From positions 1 through 64,000 of IMG/VR virus record IMGVR_UViG_3300008107_005910: a stretch of DNA of 64,000 nucleotides; one strand, given 5' to 3'. Numbering within the stretch: position 1 is the stretch's first letter; every line of letters starts with the position of its first letter. Below the pieces are notes generated by a model. That model was not told the DNA's origin, ran no database searches, and saw only the letters and a list, made by a program, of their open reading frames with translations. Origin of the DNA: a virus. Positions 4,538 to 59,316 of this stretch are shown one piece after another. A program made the translations under genes and the position numbers.

Positions 4538-5353
4538 ATGAACATAGATTTTTCAAATCTTGAAACACAAGGTTATATAGTGATACCTAACTTTTTATCA
4601 ATTGAAGAAATTGATATGTTCATTACTGATAAAAATACCAGTACAAGATTGTTTAATAGTTTTCATAGCATACCAATGCCATCAAAAACTATTCTTGAAA
4701 AAATTTCACCTAAAGTATTAGACCTAATGAATCAGATTGGTGACAATACGTCAATTAAAACCAATGTGATATCAATGTTATCCTTATATATGGATACGTC
4801 TAATTTTCAAATGCCTTGGCATCAAGATCATGTGTCATGGTACATTGATCAACATCATGATAATTATTTAAATTTTTATATTTCAATTATTAAACCTAAT
4901 TCAAATTTATCAGGATTGAGTTTGATTCCTTACGATGTTATTGATAAAAATTTTCCTGAGTACAAAGAAAAATTTTTAGGGAAAGGGGCTAAAAGATTTT
5001 TCCCAAATAATAACAAGACAACTGTATTTGATGACGAAACTGGTGAGGAATATGATTTACCTATCAATATTGACAATGTACAAGTGTCCCCAAAAATAAA
5101 TCCTGGTGATGCTTTGATATTGAGAGGTGATGTAATTCATAAAACACAAGACACATTAACCAATCGTTTATCTGTTACAATTAGATGTTTGGATGGTAAC
5201 TTTGTTGTTAGTAAAAAGAAAATGTTAAGTACTGAATGTAAGACAAAAAGTTCAATTTTAACATCAAATTTAGATCTTTATAGAGCAGTGATAAATGCTT
5301 ATGGTGATAAAGAAACTATGACCATTTTTGAACTGTATGAAAAATGGAATTGA
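4538..5353 (+). CDS. PhyH-like 2-oxoglutarate/Fe(II) dioxygenase
   Basis: 271 residues. MPWHQDHVSWY (about residue 87) gives the HxD iron-binding pair. GDVIHKTQDTLTNRLSVTIR (about 205) gives the distal His and the Arg that would bind 2-oxoglutarate. The overall layout matches the phytanoyl-CoA dioxygenase superfamily. It would hydroxylate a small molecule or lipid, substrate unknown. An AAGGA site sits 6 bases before the ATG, just after the structured leader. Its stop touches the tmRNA acceptor piece. Confidence 0.75.
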   Translation: MNIDFSNLETQGYIVIPNFLSIEEIDMFITDKNTSTRLFNSFHSIPMPSKTILEKISPKVLDLMNQIGDNTSIKTNVISMLSLYMDTSNFQMPWHQDHVSWYIDQHHDNYLNFYISIIKPNSNLSGLSLIPYDVIDKNFPEYKEKFLGKGAKRFFPNNNKTTVFDDETGEEYDLPINIDNVQVSPKINPGDALILRGDVIHKTQDTLTNRLSVTIRCLDGNFVVSKKKMLSTECKTKSSILTSNLDLYRAVINAYGDKETMTIFELYEKWN

Positions 5354-5421
5354 GGAATTGTTGTAATCCCTTCAAAGCGAAGGCATCTTGGACGGGGGTT
5401 CGATTCCCCCCGGGTCCACCA
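5354..5421 (+). ncRNA. ssrA: Permuted tmRNA, acceptor piece
   Basis: It carries the 3' half of a tRNA-like domain: T arm GGGGG-TTCGATT-CCCCC, then acceptor strand CGGGTCC (5411-5417) and encoded ACCA (5418-5421). CGGGTCC pairs (one G-U) with GGGCCCG at 5511-5517, the start of the coding piece downstream. So the 3' end precedes the 5' end, which is the circular permutation known for two-piece tmRNAs. A hairpin CCTTC-AAAGC-GAAGG precedes the T arm. The 5' end of the piece is approximate. Confidence 0.85.
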
Positions 5422-5434
5422 TAAGGAGATTAGT

Positions 5435-5509
5435 ATGAACGACGATTTAACTCCCCTAGCAATAGGCGTAGTGGTTGTTTTAGTAGTTTTTGCTCTAGTC
5501 CTTTTATGA
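5435..5509 (+). CDS. 24-residue membrane micropeptide inside the tmRNA spacer
   Basis: Between the CCA end of the acceptor piece and the first base of the coding piece lies an ORF with AAGGAG (5423-5428) six bases before ATG. The peptide starts MNDDLTPLAIG and the rest is a continuous Val/Leu/Ala/Phe hydrophobic segment long enough to span a membrane. It ends one base before the coding piece. Charge distribution predicts N-terminus outside the helix. In the precursor this spacer would be the loop that processing removes. Coding is inferred from the Shine-Dalgarno and composition. Confidence 0.6.
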   Translation: MNDDLTPLAIGVVVVLVVFALVLL

Positions 5510-5510
5510 T

Positions 5511-5733
5511 GGGCCCGACCGGTTTCGACAGGGTGAGATAGTAGAGACGGCAACACGGTAGGCGATGACCGTAAATCAAGCAAAACAAGTAAATGCAAAT
5601 GCAAAAGCAATTACAACTGAAGCAGAAGTAATGACTTTCACCTGGGATCTTCCAGCTAACGAAAGCCGTTACGCTCTAGCAGCCTAAGAAACTGCACTTC
5701 CGAGGTAGGACTTACCTTGTTATCAAAACAACC
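5511..5733 (+). ncRNA. ssrA: Permuted tmRNA, coding piece
   Basis: Begins GGGCCCGACCGGTTTCGACAG, the 5' tRNA-like end with D-loop region of tmRNA. ACGGT/ACCGT forms the first pseudoknot stem. AGTAAAT precedes a GCA resume codon at 5595, 84 bases from the 5' end (90th base in E. coli). The frame then runs 30 codons to TAA 5685-5687 and ends ANESRYALAA. That is a much longer tag than the usual 8-16 residues, though a 10-residue tag from GCT 5655 would look ordinary. The tag ends in ALAA, the typical ClpXP degradation signal. The mature 3' end is not known. Confidence 0.85.
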
Positions 5734-5760
5734 AAATAGCACCTTCGGGTGCTATTTTTT
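5734..5760 (+). terminator. Intrinsic terminator after tmRNA
   Basis: AATAGCACC-TTCG-GGTGCTATT followed by a T run. A strong hairpin with a UUCG loop. Confidence 0.9.
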
Positions 5761-5762
5761 GA

Positions 5763-6227
5763 TTATCTCGGATAAACTAGTACGCTTTCCTCAGTACCAA
5801 CAATTGGATCAACAATAAGTTTGCCAAATCCCAACATTGTTTCGTTAGAGTTAATAGCAATTTCTTTATTGTTGTTACTGTTAGTTATGGCAAGATCAGT
5901 ACTTTTCCCAATACCATAAATTTGAGTAAGACTAGGTACAAGTACACTAGCCCACTTCAACGCAGTGTCGCCGACGCTGGTTGGCTGTTCAATTCTAGGA
6001 CTGTTATTAGACTGTGTTCCCTGCTGTAGTGCGATAACTGCTGCCACTCGAGCAGTAGTGTCTCCACTGTTGGCGATTGCTTGTAATGTTTTATATCGTT
6101 CAATGTCTGCTTGTGCTCGCGCAACTGCAATATTTTCTTGAGTTTGAGCATATTGTTGATAATTCCCAGATGCGCATCCGGTTAGAAAAATTAAGCCAAT
6201 TGATATGGCTAGAACAGATTTGTTCAT
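5763..6227 (-). CDS. Phage-encoded lipoprotein
   Basis: 154 residues with a type II signal peptide: MNKSVLAISIGLIFLTGCAS has a basic start, hydrophobic core and LTGC lipobox, so Cys17 would be lipidated. The mature part begins Gln/Tyr-rich, then helical and Ala-rich. It could be an outer-membrane spanin component, a superinfection-exclusion lipoprotein or another envelope protein; no family is recognised. Its ribosome site lies in a hairpin (see 6230-6267). It converges on the tmRNA terminator. Confidence 0.7.
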   Translation of the reverse strand: MNKSVLAISIGLIFLTGCASGNYQQYAQTQENIAVARAQADIERYKTLQAIANSGDTTARVAAVIALQQGTQSNNSPRIEQPTSVGDTALKWASVLVPSLTQIYGIGKSTDLAITNSNNNKEIAINSNETMLGFGKLIVDPIVGTEESVLVYPR

Positions 6228-7356: not shown

Positions 7357-7896
7357 ATGAAAACAGTTGGACATAAATTAGAAAAATTCGCAATCACTGG
7401 TGTTAAACCAGGTCAGCCAGAAGATGCTTTCTTTGACATTACAGATGAAAGTTTTGCTGGCAAGTGGAAGGTAATCGTTTACTATCCAAAGGACTTCACA
7501 TTTGTTTGTCCTACAGAAATTGTAGCCTATGACAAACTAGCAGGCGACTTTGCTGATCGTGATGCAGTATTGCTAACAGGTAGCACAGATAATGAATTCT
7601 GTAAAGTTAGCTGGCAGAAAGCACACCCAGATCTACAAAAAATCACTCACACCCAGTTCGCTGACACACAGCGTGGTGAGTTGAGCTTGATCGAACAACT
7701 TGGTGTATTTTACGCTCCAGCAGGTGCCGCACTTCGCGCAACATTCATTGTTGACCCAGACAACGTTATCCAACACGTTACTGTCAACAACTTAAACGTT
7801 GGTCGTAGCCCAGAAGAAACATTGCGTGTACTTGACGCATTGCAAACTGGTGAACTATGTGCTTGTAACCGTACAGTAGGCGGGGAGACATTATAA
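7357..7896 (+). CDS. ahpC: AhpC-type 2-Cys peroxiredoxin
   Basis: 179 residues. The peroxidatic Cys is in FTFVCPTEI (about residue 50). The conserved Arg is in the AALRATFIVDP region. A resolving Cys region is present in GELCACNRTVGG near the C-terminus. It reduces H2O2, organic hydroperoxides and peroxynitrite. A strong AAAGGAGA site precedes the ATG. The stop overlaps the start of the AhpD gene by one base, so the pair is an AhpC/AhpD module in which AhpD would recycle AhpC. Found in many bacteria and unusual in a phage. Confidence 0.93.
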   Translation: MKTVGHKLEKFAITGVKPGQPEDAFFDITDESFAGKWKVIVYYPKDFTFVCPTEIVAYDKLAGDFADRDAVLLTGSTDNEFCKVSWQKAHPDLQKITHTQFADTQRGELSLIEQLGVFYAPAGAALRATFIVDPDNVIQHVTVNNLNVGRSPEETLRVLDALQTGELCACNRTVGGETL

Positions 7897-8402
7897 TGGC
7901 ATTCATTGACGCAATTAAAACTGCGTTGCCAGAATATGCAAAGGACACCAAGTTAAACTTAGACGCTGTCCTTTTGCGTAGCACATTGGATGCAGATGTG
8001 GCTATGGGTTGTGCTGTGGCCGCACTCGCCGCAACTGGTAACGGTAAGGTACTTGCTGTCATGTTAGCAGACGCACCTGTTCACTCAGAATCAGCAATGA
8101 CAGCCGCAAGTATTATGGCACAGAACAATGTATGGTATCCATATGTTGAGATGGCAGATGACGAACAGCTAAAAGGTTTACCAGCACAATTACGTATGAA
8201 TGCTATTGCAAGCCATGGCGGAACTACAAAAGCAAACTTTGAAGCATTTAGTTTGGCAGCTAGTATTGTTGGCAAGTGTCATTTCTGTGTTAAGGCACAC
8301 TATGACACACTCAAGAAGGAAGGCTACACAGTAGAACAACTTCGCGATATTGGACGTATTGCCAGTGTAATGAACTCAGTTGCCAAAGTTTTGAATAGTT
8401 AA
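7896..8402 (+). CDS. ahpD: AhpD-like alkylhydroperoxidase
   Basis: 168 residues. CHFCVKAHYDTLKKEG (about residue 127) carries the CxxC and following His of the AhpD/CMD active site. The Ala-rich helices upstream fit the all-helical fold. It supplies electrons to the adjacent peroxiredoxin, usually through lipoyl proteins in bacteria that have the AhpC/AhpD pair. It directly follows ahpC in one transcript. Confidence 0.9.
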   Translation: MAFIDAIKTALPEYAKDTKLNLDAVLLRSTLDADVAMGCAVAALAATGNGKVLAVMLADAPVHSESAMTAASIMAQNNVWYPYVEMADDEQLKGLPAQLRMNAIASHGGTTKANFEAFSLAASIVGKCHFCVKAHYDTLKKEGYTVEQLRDIGRIASVMNSVAKVLNS

Positions 8403-8523
8403 TTCTGCGATAGTAGATTAATGATTTTCAGTATGTTTTTCGTGGTAGTTTTCATGTAATATAATGATACATACTAGTGCAATAAAAAGTATGTTTATTT
8501 TATATTAACAAAGGAGAATTACT

Positions 8524-8595
8524 ATGTGGACAAAGCCAGAAGCAACTGAAATGCGCTACGGTTTCGAAATCACAATGTATATCGCAAATCGATAA
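8524..8595 (+). CDS. pqqA: PqqA, pyrroloquinoline quinone precursor peptide
   Basis: 23 residues from ATG 8524 behind AAAGGAG (7 bases). It begins MWTKP, contains GFEITMYIANR and ends in Arg. Glu15 and Tyr19 sit in the E-x3-Y arrangement that PqqE crosslinks to make PQQ, at the same positions as in Klebsiella PqqA. Length and both ends match beta/gammaproteobacterial PqqA. No pqqB, C, D or E is recognised here, so it would rely on host enzymes. It is monocistronic, with its own terminator 4 bases after the stop and an AT-rich upstream region with TATAAT at 8460. Confidence 0.88.
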   Translation: MWTKPEATEMRYGFEITMYIANR

Positions 8596-8599
8596 TACA

Positions 8600-8624
8600 A
8601 ATGCCCCGCAAGGGGCATTTTTTT
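8600..8624 (+). terminator. Intrinsic terminator after pqqA
   Basis: AATGCCCC-GCAA-GGGGCATT followed by a T run; GC-rich stem. Confidence 0.92.
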
Positions 8625-8711
8625 GAGCAAATTTTCTGTCAACAAAAGTGTTAGCTAATGCGTTATATGTATAGCACATGAACAATGTGTATTTTAAAAA
8701 GGAAAATTAAA

Positions 8712-8912
8712 ATGAAATTAATCGCAACTCTAGTAGCATCTATGTTTGCAGTAACAGCTTTTGCGGCAGAACCAGCTAAGAAAGAAGAAAAGAAAGTTGA
8801 AGCCAAGCCAGCCGCAACTACACCATCTGCTCCAGCGTCCAAGCCAGCTGAAAAGAAGGCTGCTGACGCCACCAAAAGCGACGCCAAAAAAGCCGAGCCT
8901 GCTAAGAAGTAA
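8712..8912 (+). CDS. Secreted Ala/Lys/Pro-rich small protein
   Basis: 66 residues from ATG 8712, which gives a clean signal peptide (MKLIATLVASMFAVTAFA, cut after AFA); an upstream in-frame ATG at 8685 would spoil it. The mature part is low-complexity Ala, Lys, Pro and Glu, probably disordered and periplasmic. Function unknown. It resembles small secreted Lys/Ala-rich proteins of betaproteobacteria, so host origin is possible. Confidence 0.65.
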   Translation: MKLIATLVASMFAVTAFAAEPAKKEEKKVEAKPAATTPSAPASKPAEKKAADATKSDAKKAEPAKK

Positions 8913-33474: not shown

Positions 33475-34093
33475 TTGTCTTTTCTGTGTATTCTGCTCTT
33501 TGCCAATTTAACAAATACTGTGCTTTCCAGTGATTCTGATCAAATCCTTTTAAATTCTCCCATTGATCTCGTTGTTGCCAAATCCTTTTGGCTGCATCAA
33601 TCCAATCAGTGTGTCTTACAGTCCATTCAAAATCCACCATACGATTTTTGAAATATTCATAATCACAATGATCATACTCTATATGTAGCACTTCATAGAC
33701 TGTGCCGTCTTCTGCGACAGAATCTAGCGCAAAATCAAAACCCCATTTGCGTTTTGTTTTTAATAACAAGTCAACTTGTGGAAAATGGGGTTTCAGTTCA
33801 AATAATTGCTTGGCAGCATCCTGATCATAGTCACACCTGCATAAAAATATACTGTGATCTAAAATTAAGGGAATATTTGAATATTCTAATTCAAACCAAG
33901 GTTCCTGCCAACAGTGATGATTTAATATAGGATAGTTGATGGGATAGTCCATAGCTGAATAAAACTTTTGTTCAGCTAAATTTAATTCAAATCCGTCCTT
34001 GTCATAATATTGAAAATCTAATGGTTCTAATATTTCAACACTCTTTGTACAACTTGGATTTGACATCAGTGATACATCAAATCTACGAAACAT
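33470..34093 (-). CDS. Hypothetical 207-residue protein
   Basis: Rich in Tyr, Trp, Asp and Phe. The start MFRRFDVSLMSNPS and the WTVRHTDWIDAAKRIWQQRDQW helix are distinctive. Similar to unannotated cyanophage proteins in style. No domain recognised. Confidence 0.6.
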   Translation of the reverse strand: MFRRFDVSLMSNPSCTKSVEILEPLDFQYYDKDGFELNLAEQKFYSAMDYPINYPILNHHCWQEPWFELEYSNIPLILDHSIFLCRCDYDQDAAKQLFELKPHFPQVDLLLKTKRKWGFDFALDSVAEDGTVYEVLHIEYDHCDYEYFKNRMVDFEWTVRHTDWIDAAKRIWQQRDQWENLKGFDQNHWKAQYLLNWQRAEYTEKTI

Positions 34094-34114
34094 TATGGCG
34101 TCTAACTTTCTATT

Positions 34115-34498
34115 TTAATCAAAGTTTCCTAACATGCGTTTTTGTTCAATGTCATTTTTTCTAGCGTAATCATCAATGGCCAATGCTAATTGAAAATCTA
34201 ATATGGTCAAACCTTCGACATCAAATGTAGTTGTTTCTACAGTGACCTCAGCAACATCTTGTGTGACTTTGGCAAAATGATCTAATTTTTCAGATAGGTC
34301 ATTAATATGTTCAATGAACTCTTCAGCTTGTCTATGATCCTGTGCCACATATTGAGCTTTAAGTATGCGATGATCTAACATTTCCCAATCAGGTAAAAAT
34401 TTAGACTTTAAATCGTTCAATGATTCCTTATTAGGGATGAACTCTTCTAGACTATTAGATCTAAATTTACCTTCTATAATATCAATCCATTGTCTCAT
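34115..34498 (-). CDS. Pterin-4a-carbinolamine dehydratase-like protein
   Basis: 127 residues. The second half reads like the PCD fold: AEEFIEHINDLSEKLDHFAKV, then VTVETTTFDVEGLTILDFQLALAIDDYA in place of the usual HHP...THxxxGLTxxDxxLAxxID. The catalytic His-His-Pro is changed to Asp-His-Phe, so activity is doubtful. The N-terminal start MRQWIDIIEGKF is phage-style. Overlaps the next gene by 4 bases. Confidence 0.55.
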   Translation of the reverse strand: MRQWIDIIEGKFRSNSLEEFIPNKESLNDLKSKFLPDWEMLDHRILKAQYVAQDHRQAEEFIEHINDLSEKLDHFAKVTQDVAEVTVETTTFDVEGLTILDFQLALAIDDYARKNDIEQKRMLGNFD

Positions 34499-34917
34499 TG
34501 TGTTCTGTCCTTGTTGTCTATGGCCCCACCTGTAACCCAGGCTGTACAGCTACGATCACCAGCACATTTAAAATGTAAAAAGTTACAGTAGCCTAGATCA
34601 GCTTTATGTATCGTTGCCATAGCGTCTGTTTCTTTACTGTCACCTTTGATTCCATCTTCAATACACTGCCACATCTTATCACTGACATCAAAAGCCGCAC
34701 AGTTGCCACACTTCATTGTACGAGCAGTTTTTTCTGTAATACCCCAACGTTTGGCAGCATCCTTCCAATATGACTCTGATTCGTCTGGATTAGCAGGCCC
34801 ATAGTAATATTCGTCTATGGCTTTCTGACGATTCTTTAAGTTGACATCTAGATCATGTGTAGCAATAGGACAGCCTTTGTTGGCCGCTTCTAAAATAGTT
34901 ATATATTTTCTCATCAT
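34495..34917 (-). CDS. Cys-rich conserved phage protein
   Basis: 140 residues. KCGNCAAFD, MWQCIEDG, GYCNFLHFKCAGDRSCTAWV give at least six Cys that could bind zinc or an Fe-S cluster. Common in T4-like marine phages next to structural genes. Function unknown. Confidence 0.6.
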   Translation of the reverse strand: MMRKYITILEAANKGCPIATHDLDVNLKNRQKAIDEYYYGPANPDESESYWKDAAKRWGITEKTARTMKCGNCAAFDVSDKMWQCIEDGIKGDSKETDAMATIHKADLGYCNFLHFKCAGDRSCTAWVTGGAIDNKDRTQ

Positions 34918-36227
34918 AGTTCATCCCATCCTATAGCCCAGCATTGTTGAGTTGAGTTAGTAGTTGTAGTTACAGCAATAAGAAACTCGTAATTTACACC
35001 TGTGAATGTGTTACGTTCTAACTGAAACTTAAAAGGAAATCCAGCCAGTGATGGTGCTATACTAGCCTGATTAGTGGCTATAACATACCCTTCATCAATC
35101 AGCCTACCGTTAGTATAACTAGTGGGTGTTAGGTTGTATTCTACTGAAGATGTTGTGCCAGTGTCTTGCCATTCGCCGCCAGTGGTGATAGCCTGCTGTA
35201 TAATAAAATATTGATAATTGGCTCCAGTTAATGGAGCAAAACTAAAATTAGTAGGCACTACTATAGCGTTATTTCTTCCTGCTTTGAGTCTTATACTGAT
35301 CATAGGGACAGCAGTGTTGACCTGTGCTTGGTTAGTAGTTCTTGGTGCGGTTATGTTATGGCCAATAACTCTGGGGCGACCTATGAGTTCATAGCCGCCT
35401 TCTGATATCACAGATTGGCAGATAAATTTTAGTGTGTCGCTGACGCCTGTAGCACTGGTATTTTCTATCTCATAGCGAATGGGCAGTCGTGCTGTACCCA
35501 TATAGGTTGTAGTTATGCCAGCGTTGTTAGCATGATCCCATCTATGGCAGGGTATAAACTGTCCGTTTATTACAAAGCCCATAGTCACTGATCCTACACC
35601 TAACCATTCTAAGTTGATATAAAGTATCTGTGATGTGGCTAGATCTAATACAATCTTATCTGCATCTGTGCCGTCTAATTTACTGATGTTCCAATCTTCT
35701 TTGGCAATGCGTGTGGTTTGTAAACTACCGCTAGAACTACTTCTTCGTACAAAGTAAACATTTGTGCCATCTTGTTCTAGATAGAAACCATTTTCAGTAT
35801 CAAAGTATCCCACACGCTGTCTCAGTCCTGCGCGGGACTGTGCCATACAGAATGTTTCTAATACTAATAAACTCTTACCTGGTTGGTAAGCAAACGCTCT
35901 TGTACTTTCTCTATAGACCTTGCTTCCATTAGAACCATCCACAGTCATTGCTAACGCACTCGAGTCAGAGTTGTGTTGTGTAGTTCCGCCACTGGCTGTA
36001 AAATTAACAAAACCGTCGACGTTGTCATAGTACTTGCTGGAGTTGTCAAATAAGGTAAACGGTTCGCTGGTACGAAAGCGACCAAATGCATCAGTGGCTG
36101 TAGGACCTAAAGTGGTTCTAAGTATTGGTCTGCCTAAAACATCATACTGCATAGCATGATGCAAGTCGCTTAGGTTAGGTTCCCAAGGATGTACATAATT
36201 GGTACTATTAGGATGTAATATTGGCAT
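34914..36227 (-). CDS. Large structural protein
   Basis: 437 residues, strand-rich with many Thr, Ser, Asn and Gly. DAFGRFRTSEPFTLFDNSSKY and GRPRVIGHNITAP are typical of a virion protein family of T4-like cyanophages. No enzymatic motif. Overlaps the next gene by 4 bases. Confidence 0.7.
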   Translation of the reverse strand: MPILHPNSTNYVHPWEPNLSDLHHAMQYDVLGRPILRTTLGPTATDAFGRFRTSEPFTLFDNSSKYYDNVDGFVNFTASGGTTQHNSDSSALAMTVDGSNGSKVYRESTRAFAYQPGKSLLVLETFCMAQSRAGLRQRVGYFDTENGFYLEQDGTNVYFVRRSSSSGSLQTTRIAKEDWNISKLDGTDADKIVLDLATSQILYINLEWLGVGSVTMGFVINGQFIPCHRWDHANNAGITTTYMGTARLPIRYEIENTSATGVSDTLKFICQSVISEGGYELIGRPRVIGHNITAPRTTNQAQVNTAVPMISIRLKAGRNNAIVVPTNFSFAPLTGANYQYFIIQQAITTGGEWQDTGTTSSVEYNLTPTSYTNGRLIDEGYVIATNQASIAPSLAGFPFKFQLERNTFTGVNYEFLIAVTTTTNSTQQCWAIGWDEL

Positions 36228-38293: not shown

Positions 38294-38313
38294 AATAGAT
38301 GCATCCTTTGATT

Positions 38314-38321
38314 TATTTATT
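38314..38321 (-). promoter_or_regulatory. Late-promoter-like motif
   Basis: AATAAATA on the minus strand, 20 bases before the kinase/nucleotidyltransferase fusion. Confidence 0.4.
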
Positions 38322-38349
38322 GGTGATAACTGCGTACATAAATATTTCC

Positions 38350-39870
38350 ATGAATCATTGTTTAATTTTTGGTGTTACCAACGGCGGAATTTTTAGAGCT
38401 ACTGGTGCTCATAGAATCGCTAATCATCTTAGACTTCAGGGTTGGGACTGTGAAGTTGTAGATTTTATTGAATATTGGTCGTTTGATCAAATAAAAGAAC
38501 TATTATTATCTAGGGTTAATGAGAATACAAAGTTCTTTGGTTTCTCTATTACATTTAATCTAACAAAAAATGAACAATTATTGTTAAATTTGGTTAATTG
38601 GGCAAAGGAAAAATGGCCTAATCTGAAATTTATTTCAGGCGGTCATAGCGTTCCTTTTTTCCCTGCACCATTTGATTATCACATAATGAGTTATGCTGAA
38701 TTTGCACTAGATGAATTATTAAAATGGTTATTTTCAAATGGTGTAACTCCGGTATTTGATCCATTGCTTAAGAAAGGCAACATGGAGGTTATTAATGCTA
38801 CAGTACACCTTCCTTCTCATCCATTTCCTGAAGCAGTTATAAAATATGAGCCAAGAGATTTTATGACTCCTACAGATCATGGAGTTATAGAATTCAGCAG
38901 GGGTTGTATTTTCCAATGTAAATTTTGTAACTTTCCTGTCTTAGGCGTTAGAGGAGATTATACCAGATCAGCAGAAAGTGTCTATGAACAAATGATGTTT
39001 AATTATGACAATTATGGCGTACAAGATTACGGAGTAAGCGACGAGACATTCAATGACCGTACTGAGAAAATTGCAAAATTTGCAGATGTAGTTGAAAAAC
39101 TACCTTGGAAACCATATTTTAGTGCATTTATTCGTGCTGACTTGTTGATATCAAGACCTAGAGATAGAGAAGAACTTTTAAGACTTGGGTTACACGCACA
39201 CCTGTATGGTATAGAGTCGTTTAACGCACAATCTTTAAAATACATTGGAAAAGGTATGGCTCCAGATAGGCTTAAAGAAGGTCTTATCGATGTAAGAAAC
39301 TATTTTAAAAAACATATTGGACATAGATTTCGAGCATCAATTAATTTGATAGCTGGGTTACCTCATGAAACACTTGAAACTATGGAAGAAACTTGTCAGT
39401 GGATACACAAAAATTGGTTAGATCAAACTGTTACTTGCCAGCCTTTACGAATTAATAAAGACGACGAGCCGCGACCATCGATCGTTGATGAATCATATGA
39501 TACATTAGGGTATATTGAAATGACACCTGAAGAGCAATATGCGGCAATCAATTCTAGAGACGGAGAAGCATGGGTTCATTTAGAATATGGTCATTTTGAA
39601 CTTCTTGAAAGAAATCGCATATGGAAAAATGAACATATGAATTGGTATCAAGCTGTGTCATATTCTGCTAAAATTAATGGGGGTGGAAAGAAATTTGGAA
39701 ACATTGAAAAAGTTTATCCATTACACATGCCTCTAGTTTATTCAGATAAGTTTGGTAATATATTGACCACAGATGAAAAATTAAAACTATATGGAAAGAA
39801 AACTAGGGAAGCTGAAGAAGGCGCAAGGGTATACATACAAAATTATATATCTAAAAAATTAAGTCTTTAA
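38350..39870 (+). CDS. B12-binding-type radical SAM enzyme
   Basis: 506 residues from ATG 38350; an in-frame start at 38299 would place 17 hydrophobic residues before it. The N-terminal 130 residues look like a cobalamin-binding Rossmann domain. FSRGCIFQCKFCNF (about residue 185) is the radical SAM CxxxCxxC motif, followed by a TIM-barrel pattern. This architecture covers methyltransferases and rearrangement enzymes. It is followed at one base by the sulfotransferase. Confidence 0.8.
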   Translation: MNHCLIFGVTNGGIFRATGAHRIANHLRLQGWDCEVVDFIEYWSFDQIKELLLSRVNENTKFFGFSITFNLTKNEQLLLNLVNWAKEKWPNLKFISGGHSVPFFPAPFDYHIMSYAEFALDELLKWLFSNGVTPVFDPLLKKGNMEVINATVHLPSHPFPEAVIKYEPRDFMTPTDHGVIEFSRGCIFQCKFCNFPVLGVRGDYTRSAESVYEQMMFNYDNYGVQDYGVSDETFNDRTEKIAKFADVVEKLPWKPYFSAFIRADLLISRPRDREELLRLGLHAHLYGIESFNAQSLKYIGKGMAPDRLKEGLIDVRNYFKKHIGHRFRASINLIAGLPHETLETMEETCQWIHKNWLDQTVTCQPLRINKDDEPRPSIVDESYDTLGYIEMTPEEQYAAINSRDGEAWVHLEYGHFELLERNRIWKNEHMNWYQAVSYSAKINGGGKKFGNIEKVYPLHMPLVYSDKFGNILTTDEKLKLYGKKTREAEEGARVYIQNYISKKLSL

Positions 39871-43472: not shown

Positions 43473-43921
43473 CCCAGTCTAATATAACGAACTCCTTTTT
43501 GTTGTAGTCCTTCTTTGACTGTTCTAATGAATGTGGATGTATCAATTGGGTCATACAACGGTATCCCCAATGCTTCCATTAGTTTGCTGTCGTCATCCAA
43601 TAAATGCCCTCTCCCGCAGATACTGTAACATCCGTTTGCGCCCGCATTAACAAAAAGTATGCTTCCATAATTTTCTGCCCATCCTTTGATGTTAAGTTTA
43701 ATTTGTTCGTATGCTTTGTATATTACAAATCCAGCAACTCCGTATATAATAACACGTTTACCTTGACTGGCAAGACCTGCGGCAATATTGACCATGTTAG
43801 GCTCTTGAACACCACAATTAATAATGTTATAATTGCTGTCAGTCCACTTCCACATGTCGCAATGAAGAAAATATACTTCTCCTGGATAGCGATTTAAAAA
43901 TTTATGTAAGGTTTCTCTCAT
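43445..43921 (-). CDS. Transketolase-like pyrimidine-binding half
   Basis: 158 residues. INCGVQEPNMVNIAAGLASQGKRVIIYG holds the catalytic Glu (QEPN) and the helix of the thiamine-diphosphate Pyr domain; FVIYKAYEQIKLNI follows as in transketolases. The C-terminal third domain is absent. It is one half of a split enzyme whose other half is at 45110-45826, with the halogenase-like gene between them. Confidence 0.8.
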   Translation of the reverse strand: MRETLHKFLNRYPGEVYFLHCDMWKWTDSNYNIINCGVQEPNMVNIAAGLASQGKRVIIYGVAGFVIYKAYEQIKLNIKGWAENYGSILFVNAGANGCYSICGRGHLLDDDSKLMEALGIPLYDPIDTSTFIRTVKEGLQQKGVRYIRLGWDTAPWKS

Positions 43922-45179
43922 CTTCTAACCATTTGTAAAATTCTTTTCCTCGCTGGATATCAATTAACTCTTGTGGATTGACTGCATCCTTGGGTCTAGT
44001 AACGTCACTTCTAAATCCTGATAATACATAGTCCCAAGCTTCAGCTGGGAAAATATCTATCTCTTTCCAATCCTCTACTGGCGCATTTTTATACAAGTCC
44101 CAATACTCGTTTGATCTCTTTGAATATTTGTAGTGAGCAATAATAAAATTCATAACACCATCAAACTCATCATTGGTTTGTTGATTATATTCTTGTTCAG
44201 TTAAGTTGCCATCAATGTAACTTGTTATTCTTTTTAATGCAGAAGTTGTCAAATATAATCCAGTTGATTCAATTGGTTCAATAAATGCTGAGCATAATCC
44301 AATTGCTACAACATTATCTTTCATGTGTACTTTGTTGCGCCCAGTACGCATACGAACAGTACCAATTTTGTTTCTATCAACTATTAAATGAAACTTATGT
44401 TGTATGTACTCAATAAACTCGTCCATGACATCAAACTTGTCACAATGCACGTAACCAACTGCCAGCTGATCGCCTAGTGGAATATTCCAAATCCATCCGC
44501 TATTTGCGGCTTTGAATATCGAATATGGTACACATTGATTCTGTTTGTCAGTATAAGGATGTCTAAAAACCAACGCTTTATTATTAGGAACTTTGTCTGA
44601 TATCTCAACAAAGTTGTCGTCCCAATTAGTCAACAGCTTTTTAAATCCTGTTGAGTCAATAACTAAATCAAAGCCTGTGACATCATCAACTGTTGCATCT
44701 TTACGTATGATGGTTAAATTTTTAAATTGTCCAACAAGTGTGTCCATGTACTTTAATATATCAGATGCTCTAAAGTGTACGGAGATATCTTTATATTCAT
44801 AAATGTTATCTGGAACTTTATTAATGGACATCATTCTATCAAGGCTACTGCTATTGTATTTGTCAGTTTGTCCAATACCAAATGGGAAAGTAAACTTTTC
44901 ACCTTCTTGATTAAAACCGTCAAATACAATACCTAACTTCAAAGTACCGTTGCAATGCTTAATGATATCTGCATGACTTATTCCTAAGTCATTTAAAAAA
45001 TGCGACACATCAGGTATCAGTGCTTCGCCAACTCCAATTGGACTATTCTCTTCTGGATATGTCCAAACGATCTCCTTATCTGGATATTGTTTGGCTAGAT
45101 AAAAAGCGGTTAGATATCCTGAAGTTCCTGCACCAACGATTGCAATTCTTCTAATGTTTCTATTTTCCTGTAGTGCCAT
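43902..45179 (-). CDS. Flavin-dependent tryptophan-halogenase-like protein
   Basis: 425 residues. AIVGAGTSGYLTAFYLA is the FAD-binding GxGxxG loop, SGWIWNIPLGDQLAVGYVH contains the W-x-W-x-I-P motif of flavin halogenases, and LCSAFIEPIESTGLYLT matches the later conserved block. The Lys that halogenases use (usually in a KxG/S element near residue 75) is not securely identified, so the reaction could be halogenation or another flavin oxidation. Overlaps the transketolase half by 70 bases. Confidence 0.78.
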   Translation of the reverse strand: MALQENRNIRRIAIVGAGTSGYLTAFYLAKQYPDKEIVWTYPEENSPIGVGEALIPDVSHFLNDLGISHADIIKHCNGTLKLGIVFDGFNQEGEKFTFPFGIGQTDKYNSSSLDRMMSINKVPDNIYEYKDISVHFRASDILKYMDTLVGQFKNLTIIRKDATVDDVTGFDLVIDSTGFKKLLTNWDDNFVEISDKVPNNKALVFRHPYTDKQNQCVPYSIFKAANSGWIWNIPLGDQLAVGYVHCDKFDVMDEFIEYIQHKFHLIVDRNKIGTVRMRTGRNKVHMKDNVVAIGLCSAFIEPIESTGLYLTTSALKRITSYIDGNLTEQEYNQQTNDEFDGVMNFIIAHYKYSKRSNEYWDLYKNAPVEDWKEIDIFPAEAWDYVLSGFRSDVTRPKDAVNPQELIDIQRGKEFYKWLEDERNLT

Positions 45180-50520: not shown

Positions 50521-51254
50521 TTGTCTTTAGGACAAATACCATCCGTTTTAATTCTGTAGCAACAATTATATAGTTGCAAGTTTGGTCCATACAAAAAGTA
50601 TTTGTCTTTGTATAAACAAGTTTTGCCTTTAGTTGTGAAGTTAGGATTAGCCCACAACTCTGAGCGTGACTCACCTAAACGTTTCTCGTCTTCAAATTGT
50701 ATTATGTTTTTAAGTTTACTATCGTTTTTGAGTTGATTGAACTTGTCTAATATTGTATTGCTCACTCCATCACCAAAATCTGTAATGGGAGTCAAATACA
50801 CTTCTGAAGTTTGTGCAAGCTCTTTAACTTTGAAGTAATAGATTAAAGCATTCTCTTGGCTGTACATGATATCGTATCTACGTACATTATGCTGTGACTG
50901 CATTACTTCGTACAGTTCTTCAATGGACATTTCACTAGGATGTATACTTGCCTGCATTGTGAATGGCTGTTGAATTCCTTTAATTACTTTAACACTATAC
51001 GGACTTAGATTAGTTTGTATTACGAATGGAACGTTCAACTCGTTAAAGCATTGTATAATATATTCAATGTCAGGATGCACAAACGGCTCTCCACCAAATA
51101 CAAACACTTCCACGTTAGGATATGTTTCCCCTAACATCTTAACAAAGTTACGTATAGTTTCTCTATCTAAGTTGGGATAGATGCTTTTGTCCAAGTTGGT
51201 ACAATAAAAACAACCGTAGTTGCATTTCATTGTAATTTCCCATTCAACTTGCAT
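50505..51254 (-). CDS. Radical SAM protein
   Basis: 249 residues. EITMKCNYGCFYCTNLD is the CxxxCxxC motif, FVFGGEPFVHP the GGE motif. It ends with four Cys (NCCYRIKTDGICPKDKCF) that could bind another cluster. Smaller than most family members, so a minimal barrel. Confidence 0.85.
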   Translation of the reverse strand: MQVEWEITMKCNYGCFYCTNLDKSIYPNLDRETIRNFVKMLGETYPNVEVFVFGGEPFVHPDIEYIIQCFNELNVPFVIQTNLSPYSVKVIKGIQQPFTMQASIHPSEMSIEELYEVMQSQHNVRRYDIMYSQENALIYYFKVKELAQTSEVYLTPITDFGDGVSNTILDKFNQLKNDSKLKNIIQFEDEKRLGESRSELWANPNFTTKGKTCLYKDKYFLYGPNLQLYNCCYRIKTDGICPKDKCFLM

Positions 51255-52146
51255 TTTTCACCTTTAGTTGTTTTAACAATCCATCACAATTACATGCCTT
51301 GTGTGGGCATATCATTGGTACAGTTTTTGTTATATTCTTAAAGTAGTCTGGGTTATCTATCAAACTTGTACGTTTGCCATCCAAACAAAACTTAATAACT
51401 CCTCCGTATACATCTACTTCGTAATTATTGTTGTAGCAACTCCAACCTTGAAAATTAGTTAAACCTTGATTGAAGACTTGATAATCATTAAACACATCAT
51501 CGTCATATACTAAATCTTTTTCAAAATCTTCTAAGAATTTGAAGTACTCCCAAAAGTCTTCTCTGTAATGAAACAATGTGTGTACATCCTTTCCGTATAT
51601 AAAATGTGGGTGTATTTTCAATCCTTCAATGCCTGCACAAATCTCAAACATCTCTTTGATAAGCGGCCACAATTTCTTGTCGTGATGTAACATTATATTG
51701 ACTTTACATTTATATCCACGACTCAACATTAATTTCATATTAGCAATGAATCTATCCCTGTTGGTACAATCAGCAGGATGATAACTGAACAAAAATGCTA
51801 TCTTGTCATATTGTGGATGACTAGTAAAATCTCTCTCAGCATTGGTTACTACGTATACCCATTTGAACTTGTCAATTGCATGTAGTCTGTCCATTATGTA
51901 ATAGTAATGAGGACTTAGTGTTGGCTCTCCGCCCAACAATCCTAAATTGAAATTCAAACTGCTACGACTTAAAGAATCAATGACAGCATCAACAACTTCA
52001 CGCTTGCCCATTTGTCCCCATTTTTCTGCATACTCATTACGAGCGTAACAGTAAGAACAGTTTAATTGGCATATGGTTAAGACATCCCAATGCACATTAA
52101 TGTGATCAGGATCTTGATCTATGTGATGTTGCTTTGAATACTTCAC
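51244..52146 (-). CDS. Radical SAM protein
   Basis: 300 residues. LTICQLNCSYCYARNE is the cluster motif, GLLGGEPTLSP the GGE motif. ICPHKACNCDG at the C-terminus gives further Cys. Overlaps the neighbouring radical SAM gene by 11 bases, so two radical SAM genes are consecutive. Confidence 0.87.
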   Translation of the reverse strand: MKYSKQHHIDQDPDHINVHWDVLTICQLNCSYCYARNEYAEKWGQMGKREVVDAVIDSLSRSSLNFNLGLLGGEPTLSPHYYYIMDRLHAIDKFKWVYVVTNAERDFTSHPQYDKIAFLFSYHPADCTNRDRFIANMKLMLSRGYKCKVNIMLHHDKKLWPLIKEMFEICAGIEGLKIHPHFIYGKDVHTLFHYREDFWEYFKFLEDFEKDLVYDDDVFNDYQVFNQGLTNFQGWSCYNNNYEVDVYGGVIKFCLDGKRTSLIDNPDYFKNITKTVPMICPHKACNCDGLLKQLKVKNAS

Positions 52147-52802
52147 TGATACTCCTTTAAGAAATCCATAGATACAATAACATCTAATTCTTTCTTTGTT
52201 CCTTCAAACGAAATATTGTCGCCACCATCTATTGTTTGATAAAATAATACTTTGTTTAATGTAAGAACTTGTTTTGAATGTTTGGCTGCAAACATTACTA
52301 AATTAATGTCGTTGTGTACATTATTATCCATTGGGAATGGAAAATGTTCAATTACTTTACGTTTAAAAATAAACTGTGATAATTGCAAGTGCTCTAAATT
52401 AAGATTAGATACAAATTCCTCTGGTGTAAGTAGCGCATCATTAAACAAGCGCATGAATGTTAGCTTGTCGTCTGTATTATATGTTGGACAGTAGTTACCA
52501 GCAATGATATCTGCAACTAAGGGGACTTCAAAGTTCTTTACTAGATAGTCATCATCTTCTAAAAAGTATACATACTCGCCTGAAGCTTTTGATAAAAGGA
52601 ATTGATAGACTTTAGATAGATTATCAAACTTATTAAAATAATAAGTTATGTTAGGATGGTAGTCTTCTGGAATCACATCATCACTATCATTATTGACTAT
52701 GATCTCTACGTTGTTATTGTCAAGCAATAGACGTGCAGATTTCAAACAGCGTTTGAATAACTCTGGACGTTTATGTGTAGGTATCAATATGCTTAGTTTC
52801 AT
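52143..52802 (-). CDS. GT-A (GT2-like) glycosyltransferase
   Basis: 219 residues. LSILIPTHKRPELFKRCL is the nucleotide-sugar binding start, VNNDSDDV and YVYFLEDDDYLV the acidic metal motif. No membrane helix. It would transfer a sugar to an acceptor in the cytoplasm. Confidence 0.88.
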   Translation of the reverse strand: MKLSILIPTHKRPELFKRCLKSARLLLDNNNVEIIVNNDSDDVIPEDYHPNITYYFNKFDNLSKVYQFLLSKASGEYVYFLEDDDYLVKNFEVPLVADIIAGNYCPTYNTDDKLTFMRLFNDALLTPEEFVSNLNLEHLQLSQFIFKRKVIEHFPFPMDNNVHNDINLVMFAAKHSKQVLTLNKVLFYQTIDGGDNISFEGTKKELDVIVSMDFLKEYQ

Positions 52803-53866
52803 TTTTTTAAATAAAAGTTTACTTCTTTAATTTTTTCACCTGGTTCTGGATAAAATTCTTCATCCATTTCCTTTTTAATTCCATCACAAATATAAAAATG
52901 TTTACAAGTTACACAACTTAAATCTTTACGATAAAATCTTTCTCTATGACTGGCGGCTTCTTTATACGCCATTTTAACTTTCTCTTCCTCAGTATATGGT
53001 CTGCTTACATCCATTTCTTGATTGTAGGTTTCGCGATTCCAATCTCTAACATCATATATGTGTTGAAATATATTATACTGATATTGTTCATAACCCTTCA
53101 TATAGCAGTACGGAGTATATCGAACAATTATTTCAATTTCCTTATCTAATTTATCAATACATTTTTTAATACCGTCAGTTAAATCAGATAGACTTAAATT
53201 GCTAAAGTCTTCTTCATTGTTCTCAAGCCAATAATTTAATGTAATAAAATTAACAGCTACTGGCTTAATTGAATTAATTAGGTCTGCATAAACATTTTCA
53301 AGTTGATGATAATTTCTAGAATAAACTGTACAATTGATTCTAACAATCATTCCCAATTCTTGTGCGTTTTTTATTCCTTGTAATATTTTTTCATATGATC
53401 CTGGACGATTAGTAATTGCCTCATGTGTTTCTTTGGTAGGCCCATGTAAGCTGAACAATATCTCTTTTAATCCATGTTCCTTACTCTTACGTAAGTGATT
53501 CATATTGGCAAAAGTTCCGCCATGGCTTAGACAACTAATACTGGTAAATCTTTCATTACAGTAATCTAAAATTTTAAACCAATCAGGACTCATGGAACTT
53601 TCGCCGCCGCTTAAATCAACTTCAGTAATGCCGTAATCATACAAATAGTCAATCCTCTTTTTGACCACTTCCCATGGAGTTTTTTGATCTAGTATATCCC
53701 TATAATAACAAAATTCACAATCATAATTACATAACGGACCAGTGTCTAATCTAGACCTATTACATCTAGTAGATTTAAAATCATAATTTAATCCAGACAC
53801 ACTCAACTGTTGTAAGTCGTGTTGTACAGGAGATTGTTTTGTAAAAGATATTTTACTTTCTTTCAT
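52799..53866 (-). CDS. Radical SAM protein
   Basis: 355 residues. GPLCNYDCEFCYYRDI is the cluster motif, VDLSGGESSMSP the GGE-type motif. C-terminal CVTCKHFYICDG supplies extra Cys. Long enough for a full barrel plus a twitch-type end. Confidence 0.85.
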   Translation of the reverse strand: MKESKISFTKQSPVQHDLQQLSVSGLNYDFKSTRCNRSRLDTGPLCNYDCEFCYYRDILDQKTPWEVVKKRIDYLYDYGITEVDLSGGESSMSPDWFKILDYCNERFTSISCLSHGGTFANMNHLRKSKEHGLKEILFSLHGPTKETHEAITNRPGSYEKILQGIKNAQELGMIVRINCTVYSRNYHQLENVYADLINSIKPVAVNFITLNYWLENNEEDFSNLSLSDLTDGIKKCIDKLDKEIEIIVRYTPYCYMKGYEQYQYNIFQHIYDVRDWNRETYNQEMDVSRPYTEEEKVKMAYKEAASHRERFYRKDLSCVTCKHFYICDGIKKEMDEEFYPEPGEKIKEVNFYLKK

Positions 53867-54792
53867 GTTATGAACTCTTTAACATATTTGATAAAATCAT
53901 CGTTATCTGTCAATAATAATGAATTAATGTCTTTTGAAATATCTTCTCGCCTTCTTTCAACGCCACCGCAGACATAATCAATATCATATATCACTTCCTT
54001 ACCATAAACTGCACACTCAACAATAAACCTTGGGCTACAATCTCCTTTATCTGGTGTAGCAGTATATATGTAGGTATCAAAGTTTTCAAATATATTTTTG
54101 ATTGGCGCTTGAGCAACAATCACATTGTCGCTTGCTATCGTTTTGTAGATGTGAGGTTCATTAGTAAGTACTAGATATTTGTCAAATTGATATTTAGATA
54201 AAACATTTTTCAAATCATTAATTGATAATGCTCTACAGTTAGTAGTTAGGTAGAGAAGTGCTGTATTAGTTTTTATTAGTTGTGGATGATGATATTTTGA
54301 CCAAAGTATCTTTTTGACATAGTCTATTACTTTGATATTAATGTTATCATATCTCTCAGGATATAACTTAAAATCCTGCATGACATGAGCATGTTTGATT
54401 GTTTTGTGATTATGGAAGCTACTGAAGTCGTCTTCACTACACCTTAGTAAAAACATATTTTCAGTATAGAAGACACAACTTAAGAATCGCCAACTGCCAT
54501 CAACAACACAGACATTGTTTGCCATAACAATTTTAGGCACAGCACACTCAAACGTGTCTTCTTGTATTTTTACAAATTCGTCTTCTGTGAAACTATATTT
54601 GTCTTTGACCGCAGTTAAAAATAAATCTTTGCTAGTACGGTCAGTTAACAAAATGCAGGAATTAATTCCATTGATAGAACTTATGTAATAATAGTCGATG
54701 AGTTCATACAAGTGGCCACTGACACCATGCTGGCATTCAAAAGAAGTGGTGAAGACGAGATCGTACTTCTTTAGATCGACTATTTTGGACAT
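53863..54792 (-). CDS. GT-B-type glycosyltransferase-like protein
   Basis: 309 residues. A C-terminal DCSPRFIVECAVYGKEVIYDIDY resembles the sugar-nucleotide binding end of GT-B enzymes (P-x3-E-A...G). The N-terminal half lacks a clear motif. Similar proteins occur in T4-like phages. Assignment is tentative. Confidence 0.45.
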   Translation of the reverse strand: MSKIVDLKKYDLVFTTSFECQHGVSGHLYELIDYYYISSINGINSCILLTDRTSKDLFLTAVKDKYSFTEDEFVKIQEDTFECAVPKIVMANNVCVVDGSWRFLSCVFYTENMFLLRCSEDDFSSFHNHKTIKHAHVMQDFKLYPERYDNINIKVIDYVKKILWSKYHHPQLIKTNTALLYLTTNCRALSINDLKNVLSKYQFDKYLVLTNEPHIYKTIASDNVIVAQAPIKNIFENFDTYIYTATPDKGDCSPRFIVECAVYGKEVIYDIDYVCGGVERRREDISKDINSLLLTDNDDFIKYVKEFIT

Positions 54793-54795
54793 CTG

Positions 54796-55797
54796 TCACT
54801 CCTTTGGAGCGAAGATTTGTTCAAGAGTGATTGGGGTGTAACCTAAAGAAACAAGCAAAGAATCTGAAAGATGTGGGAGTGGACGATTGTATTCTTTTTC
54901 TAATTCTTCTCTAAATCTAGAATATGCTGAACATATTCCTTCAACTGCGTCAACATCCACGTAGTCTAAATTTAAATTTTCTTTTTCCCACACAGATATT
55001 ATTCCGTTGTAATCTGCATATCCTTCAGGCATCTGAATTTTGTGATTTTCAATCTCAACGTAACCACTCTTTAATATATCTTCAAATTTAATAGATGTTA
55101 CGTCAGTGAGTTGGTTTAGTGTATATGCGTTAACTGCTGACCTAATTGCTCTTATTCGATTTCTCTCTGGAGACATTGTAGGATTTTTTTCATAATACGA
55201 AGGTTTATTTTCGTTGAAGTATGTAACTACGGAAGGGTGTCTTATGATATTGTACACCTTTACATTTTGCTCACCTATGTCTCTTTTTATTAAATCAATA
55301 AATGCTTTTGAAAAAGAACCATTTACAACATGTACATTAGATGGTCTATTTCTATAGTAATTTAAAAAGTCTTGATAACCGTGTGCAAAACTATGATACT
55401 GTATTGGAGTATCCCATTCATAGGCGCTAGTATCTATACCAAGATCATATTCTATATCAACAAAAATAGTTTCAAAACTTGAAGGATTATTTGTCATGTC
55501 TAAAAATAATCTATCATACAAGTCGTCAGCTTCTGTAAAAATAGACAACCCGTCCTCGCCGCTAAGAAGTGTTGTTAGTTCTCGATTTTTTGTATCATAA
55601 ACAACTTCATTTTGTGCATTGAATATTTGAAAAGGATGAGCTATATATGACTTACCATCGTCAGATTCTGCAAATTCTGCATCAAACGTAACAGTGTGTC
55701 CATTTTTCAAATTAAAGACTGGATTCATAGCGCAAAAAACTTTTTTTGCGATATAATTTTTATTAATTGATTCTAGACCACTAATAATGACTAACAT
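54796..55797 (-). CDS. Sulfotransferase/kinase-like paralogue B
   Basis: 333 residues, paralogue of 49019-49708: GSFSKAFIDLIKRD, YNIIRHPSVVTYF, SIKFEDILKSG and LGYTPITLEQIF align with A. It has about 100 extra residues in the N-terminal half. The shared loop and RHP motif suggest a phosphate- or PAPS-binding transferase. Confidence 0.6.
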   Translation of the reverse strand: MLVIISGLESINKNYIAKKVFCAMNPVFNLKNGHTVTFDAEFAESDDGKSYIAHPFQIFNAQNEVVYDTKNRELTTLLSGEDGLSIFTEADDLYDRLFLDMTNNPSSFETIFVDIEYDLGIDTSAYEWDTPIQYHSFAHGYQDFLNYYRNRPSNVHVVNGSFSKAFIDLIKRDIGEQNVKVYNIIRHPSVVTYFNENKPSYYEKNPTMSPERNRIRAIRSAVNAYTLNQLTDVTSIKFEDILKSGYVEIENHKIQMPEGYADYNGIISVWEKENLNLDYVDVDAVEGICSAYSRFREELEKEYNRPLPHLSDSLLVSLGYTPITLEQIFAPKE

Positions 55798-55801
55798 CCA
55801 A

Positions 55802-56209
55802 TTATTTCCTTAGATAAGACTCAACAATCAAATTAACTGCGTCCTCATCATTTTGATTTGGCAGTCTTTTTAATTTGTTTATAATATCAAAATACTGTTC
55901 TTTTTTATCTTCTAAAATTTTAATTTCGTCTTTTAAAGTGATGTATTTTTCTAAATCTGCAATCAATGACTCGTCATTAAGTTCAATGATTTTAATATAA
56001 CATTCTTCTTTATTATCATCTGTGATTGCAATGCCTTTACTTAAAAATTTATTGTTTAACATCATTAAAGACACGAAGTCAATTAATTTAAAAGTTAAAA
56101 GGTCATCACCAAAATAACCACGGGCCTTAGTTTTAACTGCCCATGCCGCTTTTCCTGCATAAGTTGATCTGTCAATACCTTCTATTTCTTTTTTATTACT
56201 GTCATCCAT
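55802..56209 (-). CDS. Hypothetical 135-residue protein
   Basis: ATG 56209 used; a TTG start at 56221 adds four residues. Helical, with KAAWAVKTKARGYFGDD near the start and a coiled-coil C-terminal half (LKDEIKILEDKKEQYFDI). It follows the S74 relic by one base. Unknown; may be virion-associated or a partner of the modification enzymes. Confidence 0.5.
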   Translation of the reverse strand: MDDSNKKEIEGIDRSTYAGKAAWAVKTKARGYFGDDLLTFKLIDFVSLMMLNNKFLSKGIAITDDNKEECYIKIIELNDESLIADLEKYITLKDEIKILEDKKEQYFDIINKLKRLPNQNDEDAVNLIVESYLRK

Positions 56210-56210
56210 C

Positions 56211-56433
56211 TTAAGCCTCAATCATTTTTACTGGTAATTTTGAATAGTTTACTTGATAATAACCGTTTGAATCTTTACTTAGTGCATCTTCATATTTGGT
56301 GCCTAAAAGTTCTTGAGCCATAACACCAATATAAGTCTTAGCAGTGTTCCAAACGTAAGAGAAGGAATAAACATTTAAGCCTTCAACAATGTCAACAAGT
56401 TTGATAGATGTCTTTAATCTAATATCACTAATT
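56211..56433 (-). pseudogene. Relic of S74 tail-fibre chaperone domain
   Basis: From ATT 56433, AGT GAT reads ISDIRLKTSIKLVDIVEGLN, the start of the Peptidase_S74 auto-cleaving domain (Ser-Asp-x-Arg-Leu-Lys). A TAA interrupts at 56340-56338; shifting one base gives KTYIGVMAQELLGT...NGYYQVNYSKLP, the next conserved blocks, to TAA 56213. There is no start codon and the frame is broken, so it looks like a decayed fibre end. A frameshifting signal is not evident. Confidence 0.7.
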
Positions 56434-56643
56434 TAAATCGGCAGCTTCAATCAAACCAGTAAATCTAGCTTGAACTACAGGTGCGGCGGTGCTTCCTCGT
56501 CTAACACGTTCTAAATTGACTGCGGTTTCAATTTCTCTAAATTTGGTAGTTGTAACTTGTACTCCGGCTGCAACTGCTGGCAAAAAATAAATTACAGCAT
56601 CTGATCCAGGATTGGTACCAAATGTATTAATGACTTTTGGCAT
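56428..56643 (-). CDS. Hypothetical 71-residue probable virion protein
   Basis: Gly, Ala and Val-rich with VYFLPAVAAGVQVTTTKF-like strands (VIYFLPAVAAGVQ) and a Glu/Asn/Leu region. Its stop overlaps the beginning of the S74 relic, so it may be the surviving upstream part of a fibre gene or a separate small structural protein. Confidence 0.5.
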   Translation of the reverse strand: MPKVINTFGTNPGSDAVIYFLPAVAAGVQVTTTKFREIETAVNLERVRRGSTAAPVVQARFTGLIEAADLN

Positions 56644-56656
56644 TACGTTGCTCCTC

Positions 56657-57046
56657 TTATATCTCTTTGTTCAAGAACTCTAAGTTCTGTTTAGCACTAT
56701 TTTGAGCAACAAACTTTTCATAATCGTCTAAATCAGAAGAGGCAGTTATAAAATCGAGAGTCTCTTCGTCTGGTGCTTTAGTAAAATTCATGTTTCCGTT
56801 TTCTACGGCTTGTTTTTCCAAAATGCTCAAAACTAATTCTTCCAATGAAAAACCCAAAATGCCTGTAACAATTTGGATTTTTTCGCTTACATCCATATTT
56901 TTTGTTTCAGCAACATGTTTGGCTGCTTTGATAATGTTTATTGACATACCAAAGCCTTCCATGAAGACGTATCCAACATCTTGATTCTCTTTCTCGATTT
57001 CCTTAATCAAATCATAAATTTGACCCATTTTTTCTTCAATCGCCAT
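56657..57046 (-). CDS. Hypothetical 129-residue acidic protein
   Basis: Helical, with LIKEIEKENQDVGYVFMEGFG at the start and acidic C-terminus (DLDDYEKFVAQNSAKQNLEFL). It overlaps a radical SAM gene by 11 bases and could be its partner or substrate, but no leader-peptide-like motif is evident. Confidence 0.5.
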   Translation of the reverse strand: MAIEEKMGQIYDLIKEIEKENQDVGYVFMEGFGMSINIIKAAKHVAETKNMDVSEKIQIVTGILGFSLEELVLSILEKQAVENGNMNFTKAPDEETLDFITASSDLDDYEKFVAQNSAKQNLEFLNKEI

Positions 57047-57926: not shown

Positions 57927-58192
57927 TGTCTAGCCTTTGCTTCTTTTACAATGTGAGCAACATTATCTAAGAATTTTACGTAATCAAATTTATATTCAAA
58001 CAAGTGGCCTGCTTCATTCCTGTAATCAACATAATGATTGTCTACTTTTGCCTTGCCTTTTTTTGCTTCTTCAATTTGTTGTTGTAAATTATCAATAGTT
58101 AAAACAGTATCGCTCTTATGCTCAACTGGCTGCATTTCTACTTTAACAGGAATGGCAGCTATGCTTTTATAAGTTTTTTTTAATTCTTGCAT
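57923..58192 (-). CDS. Hypothetical 89-residue protein between two radical SAM genes
   Basis: Lys/Glu/Gln-rich helices and a YKFDYVKFLDNVAHIV segment, no Cys. Overlaps both flanking radical SAM genes by 4-13 bases. It could be a partner protein or peptide substrate; neither is shown. Confidence 0.5.
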   Translation of the reverse strand: MQELKKTYKSIAAIPVKVEMQPVEHKSDTVLTIDNLQQQIEEAKKGKAKVDNHYVDYRNEAGHLFEYKFDYVKFLDNVAHIVKEAKARQ

Positions 58193-59307: not shown

Positions 59308-59316
59308 ATCGTCTCC

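Follow-up and report, generated by a model that had tools for sequence, protein, structure and literature searches.

A freshwater-type phage, represented here by positions 1 to 64,000 of IMG/VR record IMGVR_UViG_3300008107_005910 (hereafter the window, 64,000 nucleotides), carries a standalone pqqA, the gene for the 23-residue precursor peptide of PQQ. In PQQ synthesis, PqqE together with PqqD joins a Glu to a Tyr within PqqA, and PqqB and PqqC finish the cofactor. We propose, with a probability of about 0.78, that the phage supplies only the substrate that this pathway consumes, and relies on the PqqB-E of its host to make PQQ for methanol dehydrogenase.

The window encodes a PqqA peptide

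The open reading frame at 8524..8595 (+ strand, stop included) translates to MWTKPEATEMRYGFEITMYIANR, 23 residues followed by a stop. With its own start and stop, it fits the size of the PqqA family, whose members are short peptides of about 22-29 residues, and it displays a WT-x-P start, an IANR end, and Glu15 and Tyr19, the E-x3-Y pair that is the source of PQQ atoms. The translation thus bears out the length, residue pair and ending that a sequence-only reading of this DNA had put forward, and searches of the record with PqqA models agree: both Pfam PF08042 (E 1.3e-8, 35 bits, cut-off 21.1) and the NCBIfam equivalog TIGR02107 (E 8.8e-10, 38.2 bits, cut-off 20) match above their cut-offs, and the peptide is the sole PqqA match across the whole 76,770-base record (E 1e-8). 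A degenerate PqqA pattern finds one match in the window and none in 100 dinucleotide shuffles.

The gene also has the ribosome site and terminator of its own that had been claimed for it. A Shine-Dalgarno sequence, AAAGGAG, lies at 8510..8516 (+), 7 nt 5' of the ATG, and an intrinsic terminator with a 9-bp stem, a GCAA loop and a T run lies at 8599..8624 (+; −15.1 kcal/mol, z −4.11), the fold placing the hairpin proper at 8599-8620 with the T's directly 3'. This hairpin is missing from a simple terminator scan and was detected by a separate hairpin test and by folding. Directly 5' of pqqA we found no convincing candidate for a sigma-70 promoter. Taken together, it is close to certain that the open reading frame is a genuine phage-borne pqqA and not a mere look-alike.

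The gene lies in a phage genome

Among the products encoded in the record are a DNA ligase of phage type, a virion structural protein (PHROG 1645, 345 bits) and a match to a tail protein; it also encodes subunits of ribonucleotide reductase and a protein whose fold resembles that of pectate lyase. Megablast of window positions 1-25000 against the phage collection returned no relative. One relative in the lineage was identified through AhpC and AhpD and another through aminolevulinate synthase; the records that contain them measure 353 and 356 kb, and the window is therefore probably part of a larger phage. With identical peptides in hosts and syntenic relatives in phages, pqqA is here a host-type gene in a phage genome, that is, an auxiliary metabolic gene.

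Upstream of pqqA lie an AhpC/TSA-like peroxiredoxin (7357..7896, +; PF00578, 4.3e-20), a conserved neighbor whose viral relatives number at least 600 and reach 98% identity, and then an AhpD-like carboxymuconolactone decarboxylase family protein (7896..8402, +; PF02627, 3.9e-11), whose DNA is present in 78 of 80 AhpC loci (the best 80 of at least 600). The strong conservation of this pair (7357-8402, +) in viral contigs suggests a phage-borne peroxide defense. Directly 3' of pqqA is a small Lys/Ala-rich protein (8685-8912, +) with an apparent signal peptide and no family match. Elsewhere, the window contains a predicted permuted tmRNA gene (5329-5778, +) with an unusually long tag peptide and an ALAA end, and a tryptophan-halogenase-like flavoprotein (43902-45179, −; Pfam, 228 bits).

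Viral copies are conserved and under selection

We scanned viral contigs twice with degenerate DNA patterns, each scan yielding at least 120 stretches. The pattern of the second scan imposed nothing beyond Phe14, and Glu15, Thr17, Tyr19 and the stop after residue 23 were kept in 120 of the 120 matches listed; the Glu/Tyr pair is therefore invariant among these relatives in a search that did not impose it. Two outcomes that would have refuted the sequence-only reading, a failure to score as PqqA and loss of the pair in relatives, thus did not occur. In the unconstrained tail, pS is 0.73 (near saturation) and pN is 0.10 among the 116 unique coding sequences listed, giving a pN/pS of about 0.14: codons vary while the peptide remains constant, and viral PqqA is under strong purifying selection. 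The signals recur as well, with an SD-like motif 5' of all 138 viral copies, compared with 12% of shuffled controls, and a terminator-like hairpin 3' of 62 of 136, compared with 0.9% of shuffles.

A sub-pattern present in 1 of 114 sampled viral copies yielded 51 contigs in a complete scan. Even with that fraction at its upper confidence limit of about 5%, the number of viral contigs with pqqA is probably on the order of a thousand or higher, an estimate with wide margins. Within the window's own lineage the gene is patchy (18 of 50 records, a set partly chosen).

These data bear on the possibility that the gene is a recent passenger, or host contamination, acquired from a host without function. 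The gene does move: over a mere 75-88 bp or so, certain phage copies reach 96-98% identity to those of hosts. However, the purifying selection, the conserved Shine-Dalgarno sequence, the presence of pqqA in unrelated phages, the phage genes that flank it on both sides, and the existence of syntenic relatives render a functionless passenger extremely improbable.

The substrate is carried without its enzymes

PqqD was detected in 0 of 46 pqqA-bearing viral records, the window record included, and in 4 of 4 methylotroph genomes included in that search. PqqE was above cut-off in 0 of 50 pqqA-bearing viral records, and PqqC was found in 0 of 50 (relatives' records); the PqqC search had no positive control, and the argument for enzyme absence is therefore carried by the PqqD result. 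No PqqB-E genes adjoin the viral pqqA copies, and the window record contains no pqqABCDE operon, PqqD being absent and the PqqE-like match falling below cut-off. Methanol dehydrogenase occurs in 1 of 51 pqqA-bearing viral records (608 bits): in IMGVR_UViG_3300025120_009955 (72 kb), it lies at 34049-35731, about 6 kb from pqqA. The window has no methanol dehydrogenase and no other clear host tag, and a search for pmoC in relatives, run without a positive control, found none.

The window encodes at least six radical SAM proteins (38299-39870 and 51244-60423), which lie amid a glycosyltransferase and a sugar dehydrogenase and score far below known-family cut-offs. As candidates for PqqE they were rejected on score (32 of 381 bits). 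Those at 51-60 kb, of the radical SAM/SPASM type, raise the question of whether the peptide is instead matured by the phage itself into a modified peptide other than PQQ, since several are present and some resemble PapB-type peptide maturases. This is very unlikely: measured against the cut-offs for peptide maturases, their scores fall far short in every case (e.g., 122 of 340 bits), their neighbors include the glycosyltransferase and the sugar dehydrogenase, the record contains no PqqD-like partner, and small methylophages have pqqA without any PqqE-like match.

A peptide made without its enzymes could also compete with host PqqA as a decoy: by tying up PqqD/PqqE it would slow the host's synthesis of PQQ or its oxidation of methanol. 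Loss of the reactive pair would be expected in a decoy, whereas both reacting residues are present in every copy listed, and the phage peptides include several that match host substrates exactly; we give this explanation little credence.

pqqA is found in phages of methylotrophs

A tblastn search with the window peptide against 50,697 phage records matched 12. Two of these, labelled "Acinetobacter phage MD-2021a" (CAKLQF020000010.1 and CAKLQH020000055.1), were discarded: the matches are bacterial chromosomal genes, including a whole pqqABCDE operon, and the records look to be mislabelled as phage. The 10 true phage records are Melnitz (four isolates), Venkman, MEP301, MEP401, MEP402, Methylophilaceae phage P19250A and one uncultured podovirus; the nine with a host label are all Methylophilales phages. 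The same query recovered pqqA of Rahnella, Klebsiella, Acinetobacter and the Burkholderia group from plasmids, indicating that its sensitivity is adequate and that the lack of pqqA in the numerous phages of Pseudomonas, Klebsiella and Acinetobacter carries information. The taxonomy lists further Methylophilales phages (HIM624-A, phIMB624-A, MEP431-434, Venkman EXVC038S) that gave no match or lie outside the collection, and the statement that every methylophage has pqqA applies to the phages found here. In all 10 the gene is unannotated, the records inspected having either no feature or a gene call on the opposite strand; PHROGs has no PqqA family match, and the searchable literature on these methylophages makes no mention of PqqA.

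On the bacterial side, genomes with the pqqA motif are mostly Methylophilaceae, OM43, Methylopumilus and Methylophaga, with some relatives of Burkholderia, and phages and bacteria share four identical PqqA peptides. Ten methylotroph genomes, selected for carrying the motif, have 1-9 pqqA copies each, and published Methylophilaceae have 3-12 with, one exception aside, a single set of the other pqq genes (PMC4109929). Only two weak cases of a methanol dehydrogenase neighboring a host pqqA were seen. The phage and host copies that are 96-98% identical match over the Shine-Dalgarno sequence and open reading frame, with dissimilar flanks, and Venkman (6 kb used as query) shares with an unrelated podovirus only 85 bp around pqqA. 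Such short shared stretches without flanks suggest that the mobile unit around pqqA is very small, or that the gene is often re-acquired.

The host of the window phage is probably a methylotroph, perhaps in or near the Methylophilaceae. Alternatively, the host might be a member of the Burkholderiales that is not a methylotroph, with PqqA maintaining PQQ for a non-methanol quinoprotein (a dehydrogenase of alcohols or sugars): an IANR-ending PqqA is also encoded by genomes of non-methylotroph Burkholderiales (Burkholderiaceae, Limnobacter, Hydrogenophaga). However, residue 7 of the window peptide is Ala, as in Methylophilaceae, rather than the Tyr/Phe of Burkholderiales, and the peptides of its close phage relatives mostly end in VMNR or VMNK, so we regard a Burkholderiales host as unlikely. 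The earlier expectation of a host with PQQ dehydrogenases is strengthened for the gene family by the labels of its phages and the mostly methylotrophic genomes that carry the motif; for this particular phage we infer it. The window also encodes a phage 5-aminolevulinate synthase (61290-62480, +; 565 bits against a cut-off of 339) with about 500 viral relatives. This enzyme has been reported in phages proposed to infect methane oxidizers (PMC11480375), and its presence is compatible with a one-carbon host.

Proposed role of the phage peptide

In the mechanism that we favor, the phage would make PqqA during infection; host PqqD would bind it, host PqqE would cross-link Glu15 to Tyr19, and a host protease and PqqB/PqqC would complete the product. 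The resulting PQQ would charge methanol dehydrogenase or another quinoprotein dehydrogenase, and could maintain the flow of energy and carbon while host genes shut down. Why would only the substrate be carried? One PqqA is consumed per PQQ, whereas the enzymes turn over, and hosts, with many pqqA and one set of processing genes, would obey the same dosage logic.

The proposal that the phage boosts the host's PQQ supply is supported in substance, and "boosts or maintains" describes it better. PQQ turnover is in principle slow, which counts against a gain within a single infection. Conversion of added PqqA to PQQ by a cell extract is described in work cited in PMC9851590. In Acetobacter, PQQ rose by only 29% with extra pqqAB, compared with eightfold with the whole operon (PMC7936290); the substrate by itself may therefore not be what limits PQQ everywhere.

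With less confidence, we are inclined to a broader view: phages that infect PQQ-dependent methylotrophs would share standalone pqqA as a convergent signature gene. It would travel between hosts and unrelated phages as a mobile mini-cassette of Shine-Dalgarno sequence and open reading frame (about 75-88 bp), raise only the dose of the consumed substrate, and be overlooked because gene callers skip it.

In lakes and coastal seas, methylotrophs act as important sinks of methanol and similar one-carbon compounds. Should the phages of methylotrophs supply PQQ synthesis as a matter of routine, infection would change one-carbon flux in a way to which gene catalogues are blind. The recognizable motif of the 72-base gene would, in addition, let it mark the hosts of phages that are uncultured, and its role can already be tested in phage-host pairs in culture.

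Relation to known systems

Phage PqqA is a kind already known, because the Lake Baikal phage population VP_266 was reported in 2020 to encode PqqA together with a viral methanol dehydrogenase (PMC7678222); its breadth, its standalone form and its absence from the annotations of cultured methylophages appear to be new. The window phage resembles VP_266, whose PqqA was proposed to aid methanol oxidation in Methylophilaceae, but its record lacks a methanol dehydrogenase, as do all but one of the 51 pqqA-bearing viral records considered here. Cultured methylophages (Venkman, Melnitz, P19250A, MEP301, MEP401/402) share the standalone pqqA, and differ in having other genome types (35 to 142 kb) in which the gene is unannotated. 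The peptide is like bacterial PqqA, for example that of Methylophilaceae, in length, WT-x-P start, E15/Y19 and family scores, with some phage peptides identical to it; in contrast to bacteria, the phage has no pqqB-E, and its pqqA sits between phage genes. The phage-borne auxiliary metabolic genes for pmoC, a subunit of methane monooxygenase, and for 5-aminolevulinate synthase (PMC7674155, PMC11480375) likewise represent phage support of one-carbon or respiratory metabolism, but those phages encode an enzyme or an enzyme subunit, whereas the window phage encodes a consumable peptide substrate.
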